Assembly (NCBI GenBank): GCA_902576375.1
Contig: CACGUZ010000002.1
Coordinates: 62,001 to 126,000, forward strand
Length of the DNA stretch: 64,000 bases
Source of the DNA: an uncultured Pelagibacteraceae bacterium
Lineage (GTDB): Bacteria; Pseudomonadota; Alphaproteobacteria; Pelagibacterales; Pelagibacteraceae
Reading direction: 5' to 3'
Under the pieces are notes generated by a model, which was given only the letters and a program-made list of their open reading frames with translations, ran no database searches and had not been told where the DNA came from. Made by a program: the position numbers and the translations under genes. Of the stretch, positions 2,798 to 10,935 are shown piece by piece; position 1 is the stretch's first letter; the number at the start of each line of letters is the position of its first letter.

Positions 2798-2929
2798 ATG
2801 GAATTATATCTTATTTTGAAAATTATTTTTGGAATAGGGGTTCTAATAGCTGCTTATGCAATAATAAGAAATTTAGATATCATCAAAATTATTCTAATAT
2901 ACTTTAAAGATAAATTACTTAGAAAGTAA
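2798..2929 (+). CDS. Putative 43-residue single-pass membrane protein
   Basis: An ATG with AAGG about 7 nt upstream opens a 43-codon frame. The product starts MELYLILKII, has one hydrophobic segment (about residues 4-23) and a basic C-terminus (FKDKLLRK). It is divergent from rmuC (31 nt away), and its last 15 bases overlap the 3' end of the convergent hisG. No family is recognised. The ribosome site and clean amphipathic layout support a real gene, but no homology is available. Confidence 0.45.
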   Translation: MELYLILKIIFGIGVLIAAYAIIRNLDIIKIILIYFKDKLLRK

Positions 2930-3601
2930 TTTAACAAAGTTTTTTAAACCCTTTTTTTTACTATTTTTTTTTGAAGTAAAAATACAAGCTTGGGATTTTA
3001 AGATTTCTCCATCTTTCAATATACGTAGGTTATTAGCTCTAAGAGTCTCACCTGTAGATGTTATGTCTGTAATTAATTCAGCTGAACCAGTAAAAGGGTA
3101 CGCCTCAGTTGCTCCTAAACTGTCAACCAATTTAAATTGAGTAACACCTTTAGAAAATAAAAAATCCTTAGTTAAATTTGGATACTTGGTTGCAACTCTT
3201 AATCTTTTTTTCTTTTTATCTCTAAATTCAAATGCAATTTCCTCAAGGTCAGCTATTGTTTGAACATCGATCCAAGGATCAGGTATAGCTACAACTAGAT
3301 TAGCATTTCCAAAATCAAGTTTTTTAATAACATTTATTTTGTTTTGGGTATTTATCTCACTTTCTTTTAATAAATCAAAACCAGAAAAGCCAATATCTAA
3401 AGAGCCGTCTCCTAATCTTTCAATAATTTCTCTAGCGTGCAAATATAAAATTTTTATGTTTAATTTATTTTTTATTGAACCTATCAAATCTCTTTCCCCT
3501 CGCTCAGAAATAAGCTTTAATCTTTTTTTAGTAAAAATTTTTAAAACATCTTTTTTTAACCGTCCCTTACTTGGTATTCCTATATTTATTAAATTTTTCA
3601 T
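2915..3601 (-). CDS. hisG: ATP phosphoribosyltransferase, short catalytic form
   Basis: Catalyses the first step of histidine synthesis (ATP + PRPP). At 228 residues it is the short HisG form, which lacks the C-terminal allosteric domain and needs HisZ. The N-terminus INIGIPSKGRL and the DIGFSGFDLL and DITSTGETLRANNL segments match the family; the last is the PRPP-binding loop region. Its ATG overlaps the hisZ stop by 4 nt, as expected for stoichiometric HisG/HisZ synthesis. The long polylysine-rich C-terminus is a composition effect. Confidence 0.95.
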   Translation of the reverse strand: MKNLINIGIPSKGRLKKDVLKIFTKKRLKLISERGERDLIGSIKNKLNIKILYLHAREIIERLGDGSLDIGFSGFDLLKESEINTQNKINVIKKLDFGNANLVVAIPDPWIDVQTIADLEEIAFEFRDKKKKRLRVATKYPNLTKDFLFSKGVTQFKLVDSLGATEAYPFTGSAELITDITSTGETLRANNLRILKDGEILKSQACIFTSKKNSKKKGLKNFVKLLSK

Positions 3602-4656
3602 GATTGATAATTTAAATTAAAAGCTGCTCCAACTGCTGGGGTTTGTTTTTTTGAACCAAGATCAGAAATTAATTTGTCATAACGACCACCATTACAACAA
3701 TTAATAATTTTCGACTTTAATTTAATGTCTATTTTAAAAACTATGCCAGTGTAATACTCCAATTGTCTACCAAAGGCTGATGAGAAAACCACATTCAATT
3801 TAGATATTTTATTTTTTGAGACAGGAAAATATTTCTGATCAACAAAAAGGTTTATTCTATGTTTTTTAAAGAATTTGTTTAATTCCTTTGCAGCTTTATT
3901 TATTGGACATTTTATTTTCAGAAACTCTTTAATAATTTTCGATGTATTACTTCCTTTACTTGCTCTTCTCGGATCCTTAATCTTTTTATCAAACCTTTCT
4001 AAAATTTCTTTTAATGTTCTACCTGCAACAATTGATGATTGATTATCCTTTAACATTTTTAAATATCGTCTTTTATCAACTTCAACAATAGTTGGGTCTA
4101 CATCAGAATTTGTCTCTAATCTTTTTAGTAAATCACTGAAATAATCTTCTCGCCAAAAATGTCTCGTAAGTCTTAACTTCCATCTCTTCGGTATATCTAA
4201 TTTAGATATTAGAAGATTAAAAATTTCTACATTACCAATAGTGAGTGTGCCAGTTGAGTATTTCAAATTTTTTAGTGATTTAAGTGATGTATTTATTATT
4301 TCTTTGTCGTCATTTTTTTCATCTTTTGATCCTATAATCTCAAAACCAACTTGACTTCGGATTATAGAGTCCTTTTTATTTTGAGATTTTCTATAAGCCT
4401 GTCCACTATAAAATATTTTTTCTTTGCCCCTTAAATTGTTTTCTAAATATCTAAGACAAGAAGCAATAGTAAGGTCAGGTCTTAAACATAATTCATTACC
4501 TGTCTGATCTGTAAATGAAAAAATAAATTTTCTAAAACTTTCACCAGATCTTTGAACTATATGATTAGTCTCAATAACTGATGGTAATTCAATATATTTA
4601 AATCCTTTAGACTGAACTGATCTAAGGATTTTGTTAGATAAATTTTTTGATTTCAT
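3598..4656 (-). CDS. hisZ: ATP phosphoribosyltransferase regulatory subunit HisZ
   Basis: 352 residues with the class II synthetase catalytic fold (RPDLTIASCLRYLE and the FIFSFTDQTGNELCLRPDL region, then YYTGIVFKID) but without a HisRS anticodon-binding domain. HisZ has no aminoacylation role; it activates and histidine-regulates short HisG. It overlaps hisS by 23 nt and hisG by 4 nt. Placement directly after its paralog hisS shows the tandem hisS-hisZ-hisG arrangement common in alphaproteobacteria. Confidence 0.93.
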   Translation of the reverse strand: MKSKNLSNKILRSVQSKGFKYIELPSVIETNHIVQRSGESFRKFIFSFTDQTGNELCLRPDLTIASCLRYLENNLRGKEKIFYSGQAYRKSQNKKDSIIRSQVGFEIIGSKDEKNDDKEIINTSLKSLKNLKYSTGTLTIGNVEIFNLLISKLDIPKRWKLRLTRHFWREDYFSDLLKRLETNSDVDPTIVEVDKRRYLKMLKDNQSSIVAGRTLKEILERFDKKIKDPRRASKGSNTSKIIKEFLKIKCPINKAAKELNKFFKKHRINLFVDQKYFPVSKNKISKLNVVFSSAFGRQLEYYTGIVFKIDIKLKSKIINCCNGGRYDKLISDLGSKKQTPAVGAAFNLNYQS

Positions 4657-6031
4657 TTATTAAATTTTCTTTTGGAAATGTAATTTGGTTATTCTTCCCT
4701 TTAGCCCCAAGTAGATTTTTTAATGTTATTTTATTATCTTTAAACTCATTTTCACCACAGATAACTGCGACTGGACATTCCCTTTTGTTAGCATAAGTAA
4801 GTTGTTTACCTAGATTTTTTTTACTATTCAAAAATATTTCAGAATTGATATTATTTTTTCTTAAATTATTTAAAATTTCGTAATAATTTTTTAAATATTT
4901 TTCATCCATTACACAAACAATAACTGGATTTTGTATATCAACTTCTATTTGATTTAATTGTATCATTGCAAATAGCAATCTATCAACACCAATACTCACT
5001 CCTGTCCCTGGAATATCTACACCCTTAAATCTTGAAATTAATTTATTATACTGTCCGCCTGAGCAAATACTTCCAATATCAACTTCCTTGCCCTTAATAT
5101 TTTTTGCTTTAAAATTTAGATTTGTTTCAACACAAAACCCATCGTAATAATCTAAACCTCTAACTATCGTAAAATTGGTTTTTACCTGATCGGAGTAATT
5201 CCCAAAGATTAAAACTTCAAATAATTCCTCTAATTCTTTAATGCCCTCTTGGGTAACAGGATTTTTAAAATTTTCTTTAAGTTCCTTTAAATCTTTAATC
5301 TTTAAAAAATTTAAGATTTTTGAAGCTTGAACATCACTTAGGTTTGCTCCTTTTGTTATGGCTCCACTTTTATCTTTTCTCTCTTTTTTTAATAATTCTT
5401 CGACACCCTTTAAACCAAAACCTGGTTTATCGAGTTTATCTATAGCTCTCAATACTTTGATTTGTTTATCTTTTTCAATTTTCAAATCCTCAATCAGACC
5501 TTGAATAATTTTTCTGTTACTGACATTAATAGTAAACTGATCTTTTTTTAAACCACAATCTACTAAAGTATTTGAGATCAAATTACACAGTTCGGCATTG
5601 GCTTGGGCTGAATTAACGTTTCCAACTATATCACAATCTGCTTGAGTAAATTCCCTATACCTGGCATTTCCAGATTTTTCATTTCTGAATACATTTTGAA
5701 TTGCATATCTTTTATATATTGAAGGAAGCTCTTGACTATTCTGTGCAACAAATCTAGCAAGTGGGCTTGATAAATCATATCTTAAAGTAATATTCTTTTC
5801 ACCATCATCGAATGTAAACACATCAGACATAGGATTATTCTCATCCTCTGCAAGAAAGGAGCCTATATTTTCACTAATTTCAAAAGATGGTGTTTCTAAT
5901 GGATCAAATCCATATTTAATAAAATTTTTCTCAATAACCCTTAATAGTCTTTTTTTGAGAAGTAATTTTTTATTCCATCTATCTTCAAAACCTGAGGGTA
6001 ATCCAGGAATTAATTTATTTTCTTTATTCAT
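4634..6031 (-). CDS. hisS: Histidyl-tRNA synthetase
   Basis: 465 residues from the ATG at 6031. Class II motif 2 lies around RNEKSGNARYREFTQAD, the HisA motif at RGLDYYDGF, motif 3 near GVSIGVDRLLFA, and a C-terminal anticodon-binding domain follows (PVIVCVMDE onwards). A longer frame adds 16 residues but would run into the tRNA-like gene at 6036-6109, so I reject it. The start codon lies only 4 nt after the encoded CCA of that tRNA-like element. The only Shine-Dalgarno-like bases (AAGG, complement of 6041-6044) are inside its acceptor stem, 9 nt before the ATG. Translation may therefore depend on whether the tRNA folds or is processed (inference). Confidence 0.95.
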   Translation of the reverse strand: MNKENKLIPGLPSGFEDRWNKKLLLKKRLLRVIEKNFIKYGFDPLETPSFEISENIGSFLAEDENNPMSDVFTFDDGEKNITLRYDLSSPLARFVAQNSQELPSIYKRYAIQNVFRNEKSGNARYREFTQADCDIVGNVNSAQANAELCNLISNTLVDCGLKKDQFTINVSNRKIIQGLIEDLKIEKDKQIKVLRAIDKLDKPGFGLKGVEELLKKERKDKSGAITKGANLSDVQASKILNFLKIKDLKELKENFKNPVTQEGIKELEELFEVLIFGNYSDQVKTNFTIVRGLDYYDGFCVETNLNFKAKNIKGKEVDIGSICSGGQYNKLISRFKGVDIPGTGVSIGVDRLLFAMIQLNQIEVDIQNPVIVCVMDEKYLKNYYEILNNLRKNNINSEIFLNSKKNLGKQLTYANKRECPVAVICGENEFKDNKITLKNLLGAKGKNNQITFPKENLINEIKKFI

Positions 6032-6035
6032 TTTT

Positions 6036-6109
6036 TGGTACCTTGAGTAGGTTACGCTCCTACGACTTCGGATCCACAAACCGACGTGATACTATTTCAC
6101 CATCAAGGC
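6036..6109 (-). tRNA. tRNA-His(GTG)-like gene, non-canonical elbow
   Basis: On the minus strand these 74 nt fold as a full cloverleaf. Acceptor GCCTTGA/TCAAGGT is 7 bp with one G-U; discriminator A73 and CCA are encoded. D-stem is GTGA/TCAC. The anticodon arm is TCGGT-TTGTGGA-TCCGA with one U-U mismatch next to the loop and anticodon GTG (His). T-stem is GTAGG/CCTAC. A73 without G-1 agrees with the known loss of G-1 in tRNA-His of many alphaproteobacteria. Odd points: D-loop AATAGTA has A-G where G18-G19 is expected, and T-loop AGCGTAA replaces TTCRANN, with the 54-58 pair apparently reversed to A-U. It may be the real tRNA-His or a mimic controlling hisS; I favour the tRNA. Confidence 0.72.
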
Positions 6110-6149
6110 ATATCCTTTTTCGTTTTATCTTATTTTGTTGTTATTTAAA

Positions 6150-6155
6150 ATTATA
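6150..6155 (-). promoter_or_regulatory. Possible -10 box for tRNA-His/hisS operon
   Basis: The minus strand reads TATAAT here, about 40 nt before the tRNA-like 5' end, in AT-rich sequence. No convincing -35 hexamer lies 16-18 nt upstream, so this is weak. It would give a short tRNA leader. Confidence 0.3.
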
Positions 6156-6178
6156 ATATAAGTGATTATTCGCTAGCT

Positions 6179-6280
6179 TTAGCCAGCGTGGAAATGAGCG
6201 TGCACACCTCTTTTAGTTCCTCTAAGAGCAAGTCTGAGAGTACCTGAGTTTAATCTGTAATTAGTCTCATTTTTATTCAT
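6179..6280 (-). CDS. Putative 33-residue basic peptide with His-rich C-terminus
   Basis: A 33-codon frame from ATG 6280 ends in HAHFHAG and is rich in Arg/Thr/Leu in the middle (GTLRLALRGTKRG). The segment about 6180-6250 is visibly richer in G/C than other noncoding DNA here, which argues for either coding or a structured RNA. It lies between the csp terminator and the tRNA-His-like gene, so it is the only thing in this gap. No good ribosome site is visible. The last bases form a CGCTGGC/GCTAGCG hairpin spanning the stop codon. No family is recognised; a histidine-related leader peptide is only a suggestion. Confidence 0.35.
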   Translation of the reverse strand: MNKNETNYRLNSGTLRLALRGTKRGVHAHFHAG

Positions 6281-6320
6281 GAGCAGCGTTTTAGACAAAA
6301 ATTGAAATTATTCAACCCTA

Positions 6321-6361
6321 AAAAGAAAAGGACGTTTTCTTGTTTATAAGAAAACGCCCTT
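6321..6361 (-). terminator. Rho-independent terminator of csp
   Basis: On the minus strand GGGCGTTTTCTT pairs with AAGAAAACGTCC (one G-U), with a 6-nt loop, followed by TTTTCTTTTT. It lies 15 nt after the csp stop. Confidence 0.85.
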
Positions 6362-6375
6362 GTAAAATATTTAAA

Positions 6376-6588
6376 TTAATCTAATTTTTTTAAATTTACT
6401 GCTGAAGGGCCTTTTGGACCATCCTCTAAAGTAAATTCCAATTTATCTCCCTCATTTAGAAATCTCATTCCTGCAGCTTTTACTGCACTGGCGTGTACAA
6501 AGGCATCTTTTTCTTTATCGTCTCTTTCTATGAAACCATAACCTTTTTTACCATTAAACCATTTTACTTTTCCTTGAATTGTACTCAT
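6376..6588 (-). CDS. Cold-shock domain protein
   Basis: 70 residues, a single cold-shock domain. RNP1 is KKGYGFIER and RNP2 is DAFVHASA, the single-stranded nucleic-acid binding motifs. Such proteins act as RNA chaperones and transcription antiterminators. The gene follows tRNA-Phe by 74 nt and is closed by a strong terminator. Which csp paralog it is cannot be said from this window. Confidence 0.95.
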
Positions 6589-6662: not shown

Positions 6663-6737
6663 TGGTGCCTCGGGAAGGATTCGCACCTCCGACACAAGCC
6701 TTTTCAGGGCTCTGCTCTACTCCTGAGCTACCGAGGC
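6663..6737 (-). tRNA. tRNA-Phe(GAA), unusual elbow bases
   Basis: 75 nt with encoded CCA. Acceptor GCCTCGG/CCGAGGC, D-stem GCTC/GAGC, anticodon arm GAGCC-CTGAAAA-GGCTT (anticodon GAA), T-stem GGAGG/CCTTC with one G-U. The D-loop is AGGAGTA, giving A at the position of G18, and the T-loop is TGCGAAT, giving G at position 55 in place of U. The 5' end lies 6 nt after the infA stop, so it is probably cut out of an infA-csp transcript. Confidence 0.93.
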
Positions 6738-10861: not shown

Positions 10862-10935
10862 GCTCCTGTAGTTAAATGGCATAACAAGTCCTTGGTAAGG
10901 ACTAGTTCCCTGGTCAGTACAGGGTGGGAGCACCA
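10862..10935 (+). tRNA. tRNA-Thr(GGT)
   Basis: 74 nt with encoded CCA. Acceptor GCTCCTG/TGGGAGC, D-stem GTTA/TAAC with a normal GG in loop AATGGCA, anticodon arm AGTCC-TTGGTAA-GGACT (anticodon GGT), T-stem CCCTG/CAGGG. The T-loop is GTCAGTA: positions 55-56 are the normal TC, but 54 and 58 are both G instead of T and A. The 3' end abuts the stop codon of the convergent VTT gene. Confidence 0.93.

Follow-up and report, generated by a model that had tools for sequence, protein, structure and literature searches.

A conserved histidine-codon leader precedes tRNA-His, hisS, hisZ and hisG in Pelagibacteraceae and points to probable control by tRNA-His charging

The window (the whole 64,000-nucleotide stretch of Pelagibacteraceae DNA analyzed here) carries on its minus strand a short His-rich leader ORF, called hisL here, followed by a hairpin, a tRNA-His gene and the hisS, hisZ and hisG genes. 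We consider it likely (a probability of roughly two in three) that hisL-tRNA-His-hisS-hisZ-hisG constitutes an operon under ribosome-mediated control by His-tRNA charging, with tRNA-His itself among the controlled products. It is the leader ORF and the hairpin that are conserved here, and both went unseen in a preliminary description of this locus. The features are listed below in minus-strand order, beginning after a cold-shock gene.

6328..6361, minus strand: terminator-like site after the upstream cold-shock gene, parting it from the his operon (terminator scan)
6288..6315, minus strand: promoter-like TTGAAT-16-TAAAAC just before the leader ORF (seen by eye; the consensus scan did not flag it)
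6179..6280, minus strand: leader ORF hisL, MNKNETNYRLNSGTLRLALRGTKRGVHAHFHAG and a stop, 33 codons with three His codons at the end (conserved His-rich frame)
6171..6188, minus strand: hairpin CGCTGGC-TAAA-GCTAGCG overlapping the leader stop codon (covarying helix)
6110..6170, minus strand: A+T-rich, G-poor conserved stretch from hairpin to tRNA, with ATAATTTTAAAT and ATAAAA blocks (alignment)
6036..6109, minus strand: tRNA-His(GTG), 74 nt, with A73, encoded CCA and an A18/G55 elbow (RF00005, 50.6 bits)
6032..6035, minus strand: AAAA spacer from the encoded CCA to the hisS ATG (read from the sequence)
4634..6031, minus strand: hisS, histidine--tRNA ligase (TIGR00442, 344.7 bits, above the cut-off)
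3598..4656, minus strand: hisZ, regulatory subunit of ATP phosphoribosyltransferase; overlaps the hisS end (NF008953, 398.6 bits)
2915..3601, minus strand: hisG, ATP phosphoribosyltransferase (TIGR00070, 180.3 bits)

This order is conserved among the relatives, whose loci are a hand-picked part of the best matches listed; our counts are of loci rather than of independent events, and at least three pairs (L112/L045, L113/L053 and L114/L088) each appear to be one contig counted twice. A pattern script found tRNA-His immediately upstream of hisS in 161 of 167 loci. Since the script demanded CCA and a full acceptor stem, divergent copies drop out, as in L129, where a divergent tRNA-like stretch was seen by eye; the other five loci lacking a script-found tRNA belong to the sister family f2. 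Downstream of hisS and on the same strand, hisZ was present in 80/80 loci and hisG in 78/80, the DNA ending before hisG in the other two. The close junction was likewise observed in 20/20 loci sampled from ten other genera of the family (drawn from 84 genomes with a match and chosen to cover those genera), in which tRNA-His lies 3-6 nt before the hisS ATG.

As judged from its sequence, the element at 6036-6109 is a genuine tRNA-His gene. The Rfam tRNA model RF00005 matched it with an E value of 6.9e-8 when the 64-kb window was scanned. The preliminary description had read a full cloverleaf that carries a GTG anticodon, A73 and an encoded CCA and is followed by AAAA and the hisS start codon. 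The anticodon, A73, CCA, AAAA (6035-6032) and ATG (6031-6029 of the minus strand) are indeed there. The word full needs qualifying in view of the D-loop (AAUAGUA, with A18 in place of G18) and the T-loop (AGCGUAA, with G55 in place of U55), and ARAGORN called no tRNA at 6036-6109, a miss that we think is due to these two loops. The four-arm fold is the minimum-energy fold of the element, although its stability alone is unexceptional (z -1.10).

The preliminary description had left open whether this is the real tRNA-His or a mimic that HisRS binds for feedback, and had proposed looking for a second tRNA-His(GTG). We ran that search on the incomplete genome of the window and on a closed relative, G322, and found only the copy that precedes hisS. 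The genome of the window is a 1.17-Mb assembly in 18 contigs, 95.6% complete, whose named relatives are Pelagibacteraceae. One of its 30 tRNA matches has a GTG anticodon, namely the tRNA-His of the window; the assembly must be incomplete, because tRNA-Tyr and tRNA-Thr(TGT) are absent from its tRNA matches as well. The relative G322, one contig of 1,199,990 bases whose hisS gene is 95% identical to that of the window, gave 33 RF00005 matches at E <= 0.001. There was no GTG among the anticodons that ARAGORN gave for the best 30 of these 33. Of the other three (anticodons by eye), the first is a tRNA-His immediately ahead of hisS, at 205065-205135, and the second a tRNA-Leu; the third, at G322:838387-838444 (L211), is a truncated tRNA whose anticodon reads CAT (33.1 bits) and which may be the scar of an integration. 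Since no other GTG tRNA was found in the closed relative, the element is best read as the real tRNA-His, as one of the two earlier alternatives had it, and the gene is apparently single-copy in the SAR11 genome of the window.

The same result bears on the other alternative, a tRNA mimic bound by HisRS for translational feedback in the manner of the E. coli thrS operator. The odd D- and T-loops of the element and its place right against the start of hisS would suit such a mimic, and the element shares with the thrS operator a tRNA-like fold ahead of a synthetase gene. The comparison fails on its defining point, however, because no separate functional tRNA-His was found elsewhere, even in the closed relative with the identical arrangement; moreover, the elbow changes described below co-vary as in a working tRNA. 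We therefore regard the mimic as barely credible. Two further candidates were also examined. No T-box was found in a gathering-score scan of the 64-kb window or in an E<=10 scan of 6000-6420. A phage origin of the odd tRNA was rejected, as blastn of 6020-6125 against 50,697 phage records matched 42 records, none covering 80% of the query, and the 20 listed among them had E of about 4.

The missing G18 and U55 are not a sign of a mimic, because tRNA-Val(GAC) and tRNA-Phe(GAA) of the same genome share A18/G55. The D- and T-loop sequences of tRNA-Val(GAC) are identical to those of tRNA-His, and tRNA-Phe(GAA) has A18 and G55 too (position 18 by eye); window positions 6663-6737 and L003/L025 (tRNA-Val(GAC)) are among the places with the A18-G55 elbow pair. 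With positions 18 and 55 assigned from the loop pattern rather than by a structure-based aligner, the 26 distinct pre-hisS tRNA-His sequences of the genus comprised 15 with G18/U55, 11 with A18/G55 and none that were mixed, and the 20 loci of the ten other genera divided into 17 and 3, respectively. Such a double change at positions 18 and 55 is what a working tRNA elbow would be expected to need. We found no description of the A18/G55 elbow in the open-access literature searched. TruB_N (TruB, the pseudouridine-55 synthase) was not found in 10/10 genomes of the genus tested (G000, G322, G012, G106, G409, G438, G447, G463, G179 and G277) or in 2/2 of g5/g7, and was found in 5/5 of g8/g12/g15 and 3/3 of f2 (controls, 14/14). 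We rejected the idea that the A18/G55 elbow arose because TruB was lost, since genus g12 has three loci with an A18/G55 tRNA-His and kept TruB in both of those genomes tested; the loss is thus not required.

In other respects the tRNA is of a known kind. In PMC3937112, A73 together with the absence of an encoded G-1 is reported for most SAR11 strains and their relatives, and the tRNA-His of RRCH alphaproteobacteria and most SAR11 is described as having A73, lacking G-1 and being matched by its HisRS. The window gene has T at -1 and A73. Across the 161 loci, A73 and G1-U72 were both invariant, and the base at -1 was T in 81, A in 53, G in only 23 and C in 4. The HisRS motif, reading EKSG or EKPG here, may also agree with that type; in the window protein it is EKSGNARYREF, which may correspond to Gly in place of Gln in the motif 2 loop, relative to the E. 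coli enzyme. Compared with the type as described in PMC3937112, the features here are the A18/G55 pair in 11 of the 26 distinct sequences, the position of the gene directly before hisS and repeated replacement of the tRNA allele.

The last of these features emerged from pairwise comparison of the 103 loci with a full hisS. Among 692 pairs with HisRS at least 93% identical, 164 had tRNAs less than 75% identical. Among loci L031-L229, the tRNA-His allele has been replaced between close relatives while the leader and hisS stay alike, and near-identical tRNA-His genes also stand beside hisS genes less than 80% identical (97 pairs). In genus members L133-L135, hisS is only 46-49% identical to that of the window and the leader and tRNA-His are close to those of L130-L132, which suggests from the sequences that hisS itself was replaced there. 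The tRNA-Thr(GGT) at 10862-10935 of the window has the T-loop GTCAGTA, and its stems and loops differ from those of the close relative G322, as if replaced too.

Allele replacement also bears on the junction between tRNA-His and hisS. As the preliminary description stated, AAGG lies 9 nt from the hisS ATG of the window, in the 3' strand of the acceptor stem. Its being the only ribosome site holds true for the window sequence but is not conserved, as 94 of the 161 loci have no Shine-Dalgarno-like tetramer; in 62, AAGG stands no more than 20 nt from the ATG (in 60 cases as part of the acceptor strand), and 5 have GAGG or GGAG. L080 and L083 illustrate the point, with HisRS 98.3% identical, the upstream 120 nt 91% identical, the tRNA 63% identical and AAGG in only one of the two. 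Because the site vanishes with the tRNA allele, even between near-identical hisS genes, AAGG is unlikely to be the control. In the earlier model, this site is masked when the tRNA folds or lost when it is excised, which would couple tRNA maturation to HisRS synthesis. The model fits the placement of AAGG in the window and in those loci that have it, but as a conserved control it was rejected and we now consider it very improbable.

Nor is the arrangement specific to hisS. Measured from CCA to the first ATG, the gap comes to 4 nt in 131 of the 161 loci and to 5 nt in another 20 (151/161 at 4-5 nt), and of the other tRNAs of the same genome (G000), 8/29 (Gly-GCC, Pro, Met, Gln, Leu-TAA, Leu-CAA, Leu-TAG and Glu) end 3-10 nt before a same-strand ORF of at least 60 codons. 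Abutting an ORF is thus ordinary in this genome. By analogy, we take these eight junctions to be a bacterial counterpart of the tRNA punctuation of mitochondria, the common feature being a tRNA end that lies just ahead (3-10 nt) of a following start codon; the present case differs in being bacterial and in being predicted from gene layout.

The leader ORF is conserved across relatives, and in the genus a His-rich leader ORF and a hairpin stand ahead of tRNA-His-hisS in all 160 loci scored. An in-frame ATG without an intervening stop was present in 160/160 genus loci scored, from which L102 was left out for one changed base, a mismatch, in its hairpin. In 159/160, two to four His codons fall within the last 10 leader codons, the exception having a single His codon in the scored stretch, whereas the other two frames had none in 144 and 142 of 160. 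The leader of the window ends in V-H-A-H-F-H-A-G-stop, and those of other subgroups in H-R-H-H-F-H-A-G or H-R-x-C-F-H-S. In an alignment of the subgroup of the window (44 of 45 non-redundant picks, L125 being left out for its shorter leader), all five runs of indels inside the leader ORF are multiples of 3, and those after the hairpin are of 1-2 nt, most of the latter tally being one inserted base in a single row. All but one of the 44 ORFs read cleanly (43/44), L053 starting one codon earlier. The leader of L234 reads MKNIVLNHTHHHTHAKHGLGN.

Leaders of this sort were also found outside the genus. In 20/20 loci of the ten other genera, a script that took the ORF richest in His identified one upstream whose terminal part holds 2-6 His, and a hairpin accompanies it. 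In the sister family f2 (L136-L140), a His-codon leader ending in KHHHYHI or KHHHSHI stands before hisS with no tRNA between; by eye, a hairpin comes next and then a tract resembling CCCCTTTTT. In L137 and L140 the tRNA-His lies ~1.4 kb further upstream on the same strand. Within the order, His-codon leaders before hisS thus also occur with no intervening tRNA. Cognate-codon leaders before other tRNAs were rejected as a feature of the window's own genome, where a scan of 29 other tRNAs gave one weak match, for Leu-GAG. The promoter-like TTGAAT-16-TAAAAC implies that the leader mRNA would be nearly leaderless.

The hairpin begins at the last leader His codon. Counted from that His, the leader stop is 3 codons away in 122 of 160 loci and so falls within the hairpin; in one locus it comes after 4 codons, and in 37 after 8, beyond the hairpin, so that a single picture of ribosome release does not fit all. 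Within the subgroup of the window, 92% of hairpin cells are paired, compared to 12-38% in slid controls. Two pairs are changed on both sides (7 cells), a number reached by 16/500 shuffles, and this modest covariation counts somewhat against leader control. Across the genus, the stems include GCUGGC/GCUAGC, GCAAGC/GCUUGC, AUAGCC/GGCUAU, AUUGCC/GGCAAU and AUAGCUG/CAGCUAU; pairing is therefore kept while sequence changes. The 20 loci of other genera have a hairpin of 6-9 bp, reached by 0-1 of 200 shuffles.

How the hairpin might act is less clear-cut. Because it has no U-tract, the hairpin of the window is not, on its sequence, a classical intrinsic attenuator, and the terminator scan flagged only the site of the upstream gene. 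Under a lenient test (at least 5 T in 8), the hairpins of L123 and L131, one from each of two other subgroups, passed, with 1 found versus 0.1 expected. The 20 loci of other genera have only 1-4 U in the 8 bases after the hairpin, and the terminator scan flagged none in f2 (L138). At most, therefore, the hairpin would act as a weak intrinsic terminator, and then only in some members of the family. The two lenient matches speak for leader control; the missing U-tract in the window, the low U counts and the f2 result weigh against it, as do the one locus with a single His codon and the hairpin mismatch in L102. One RNAalifold run proposed long-range pairing between the leader start and the bases beyond the hairpin; this one candidate was not above mismatched controls (matched versus mismatched, p 0.155, 0.34 and 0.056) and is not supported, and no Rfam attenuator family was found at gathering score in the scan of the 64-kb window.

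Despite these reservations, the conserved leader and hairpin argue for control by charging as follows. The genes from hisL to hisG would be co-transcribed, with tRNA-His as the first stable product, and ribosomes on the short leader would sense the level of charged tRNA-His. When this level is low, the ribosome would stall at the His codons by the hairpin, covering its 5' arm and keeping it from forming, so that transcription would run on into tRNA-His, hisS, hisZ and hisG, the last two encoding the pair with which histidine synthesis begins. At a high level, the ribosome would proceed to the stop (within the hairpin in most loci) and leave, the hairpin would form and less transcript would arrive at the tRNA. 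We infer this sign of the response, and the hairpin may exert its effect through termination (weakly intrinsic or dependent on Rho), through pausing or through decay of the RNA. Excision of the tRNA would then leave AAAA as all that precedes the hisS AUG, in the way that tRNAs punctuate mRNAs in mitochondria. The link between tRNA-His and synthetase expression that the preliminary description had proposed would thus stand in its broad form, as one between charging and HisRS, but by a different route, the His-codon leader upstream of the tRNA.

The stretch between the hairpin and the tRNA bears on a competing account, in which tRNA-His is made from its own promoter there, hisS is expressed by read-through, and the leader is a separate regulated transcript, either additive or vestigial. 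A promoter so placed would bypass the leader. The ATAATTTTAAAT and ATAAAA blocks (TAGTATAAAAC in one subgroup) are conserved in this stretch, and a TATA-like box seen by eye lies 15-30 nt upstream of several other tRNAs of the same genome. Although one promoter-like match was found in the window, at 6194-6165 of the minus strand over the hairpin, it is no more than shuffles give (mean 1.5), and the good conservation of the leader over eleven genera ill suits a vestige. We consider this account less likely than leader control, though plausible. From its sequence, 6110-6170 is a possible tRNA promoter or a possible Rho loading region. The 42 nt before the tRNA have a C fraction of 0.082 and a G fraction of 0.021 (raw fractions over 161 loci), and Rho was present in 3/3 genomes tested; the G-poor stretch and the presence of Rho are compatible with Rho action but are not evidence for it.

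Returning to control through the leader, we can extend it to the family more tentatively, with the balance in our estimation tipped slightly against the full statement. In this form, ribosome-mediated histidine control would act on the single tRNA-His gene of Pelagibacteraceae itself. Charging of His-tRNA would be sensed by way of a His peptide that is nearly leaderless, and tRNA-His would be adjusted along with its synthetase and the enzyme that opens histidine biosynthesis; the hairpin used for this, overlapping the leader end, would in this lineage not be an intrinsic terminator.

His leader peptides, like A73 tRNA-His, are known kinds. The E. coli hisL ribosome-mediated attenuator (Rfam His_leader) similarly has a short ORF with a His cluster by a hairpin ahead of his genes; the present locus differs in that a tRNA gene stands between leader and hisS, the hairpin of the window lacks a U-tract, no alternative hairpin could be demonstrated and the Rfam family gave no match at gathering score. 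Classical attenuators control biosynthetic enzymes and synthetases and are not known to act on the tRNA that they sense. In bacilli, histidine leader peptides precede a hisS paralogue and hisZ (PMC2965389); these too combine a His-codon ORF and a hairpin before his genes, and the intervening tRNA gene is again the difference. The open-access literature searched yielded neither a tRNA gene inside an operon controlled by its cognate leader nor any account in which a His leader is placed ahead of tRNA-His-hisS in SAR11. A survey of structured RNAs in Pelagibacter tabulated intergenic regions after removing those with tRNAs (PMC2704228), and we infer that the leader may have been overlooked owing to that removal.

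If the proposal is true, it would represent a novel attenuator architecture in which the operon under control includes a tRNA gene. SAR11 bacteria are highly abundant in the ocean (PMC3937112), and reduced-genome bacteria of this sort are said to have relatively few transcriptional regulators (PMC13198564). The leader-control reading gives a clear prediction for SAR11 transcriptomes, and a leader before tRNA-His-hisS-hisZ-hisG would give these organisms a compact feedback on charged tRNA, the supply of the tRNA included.
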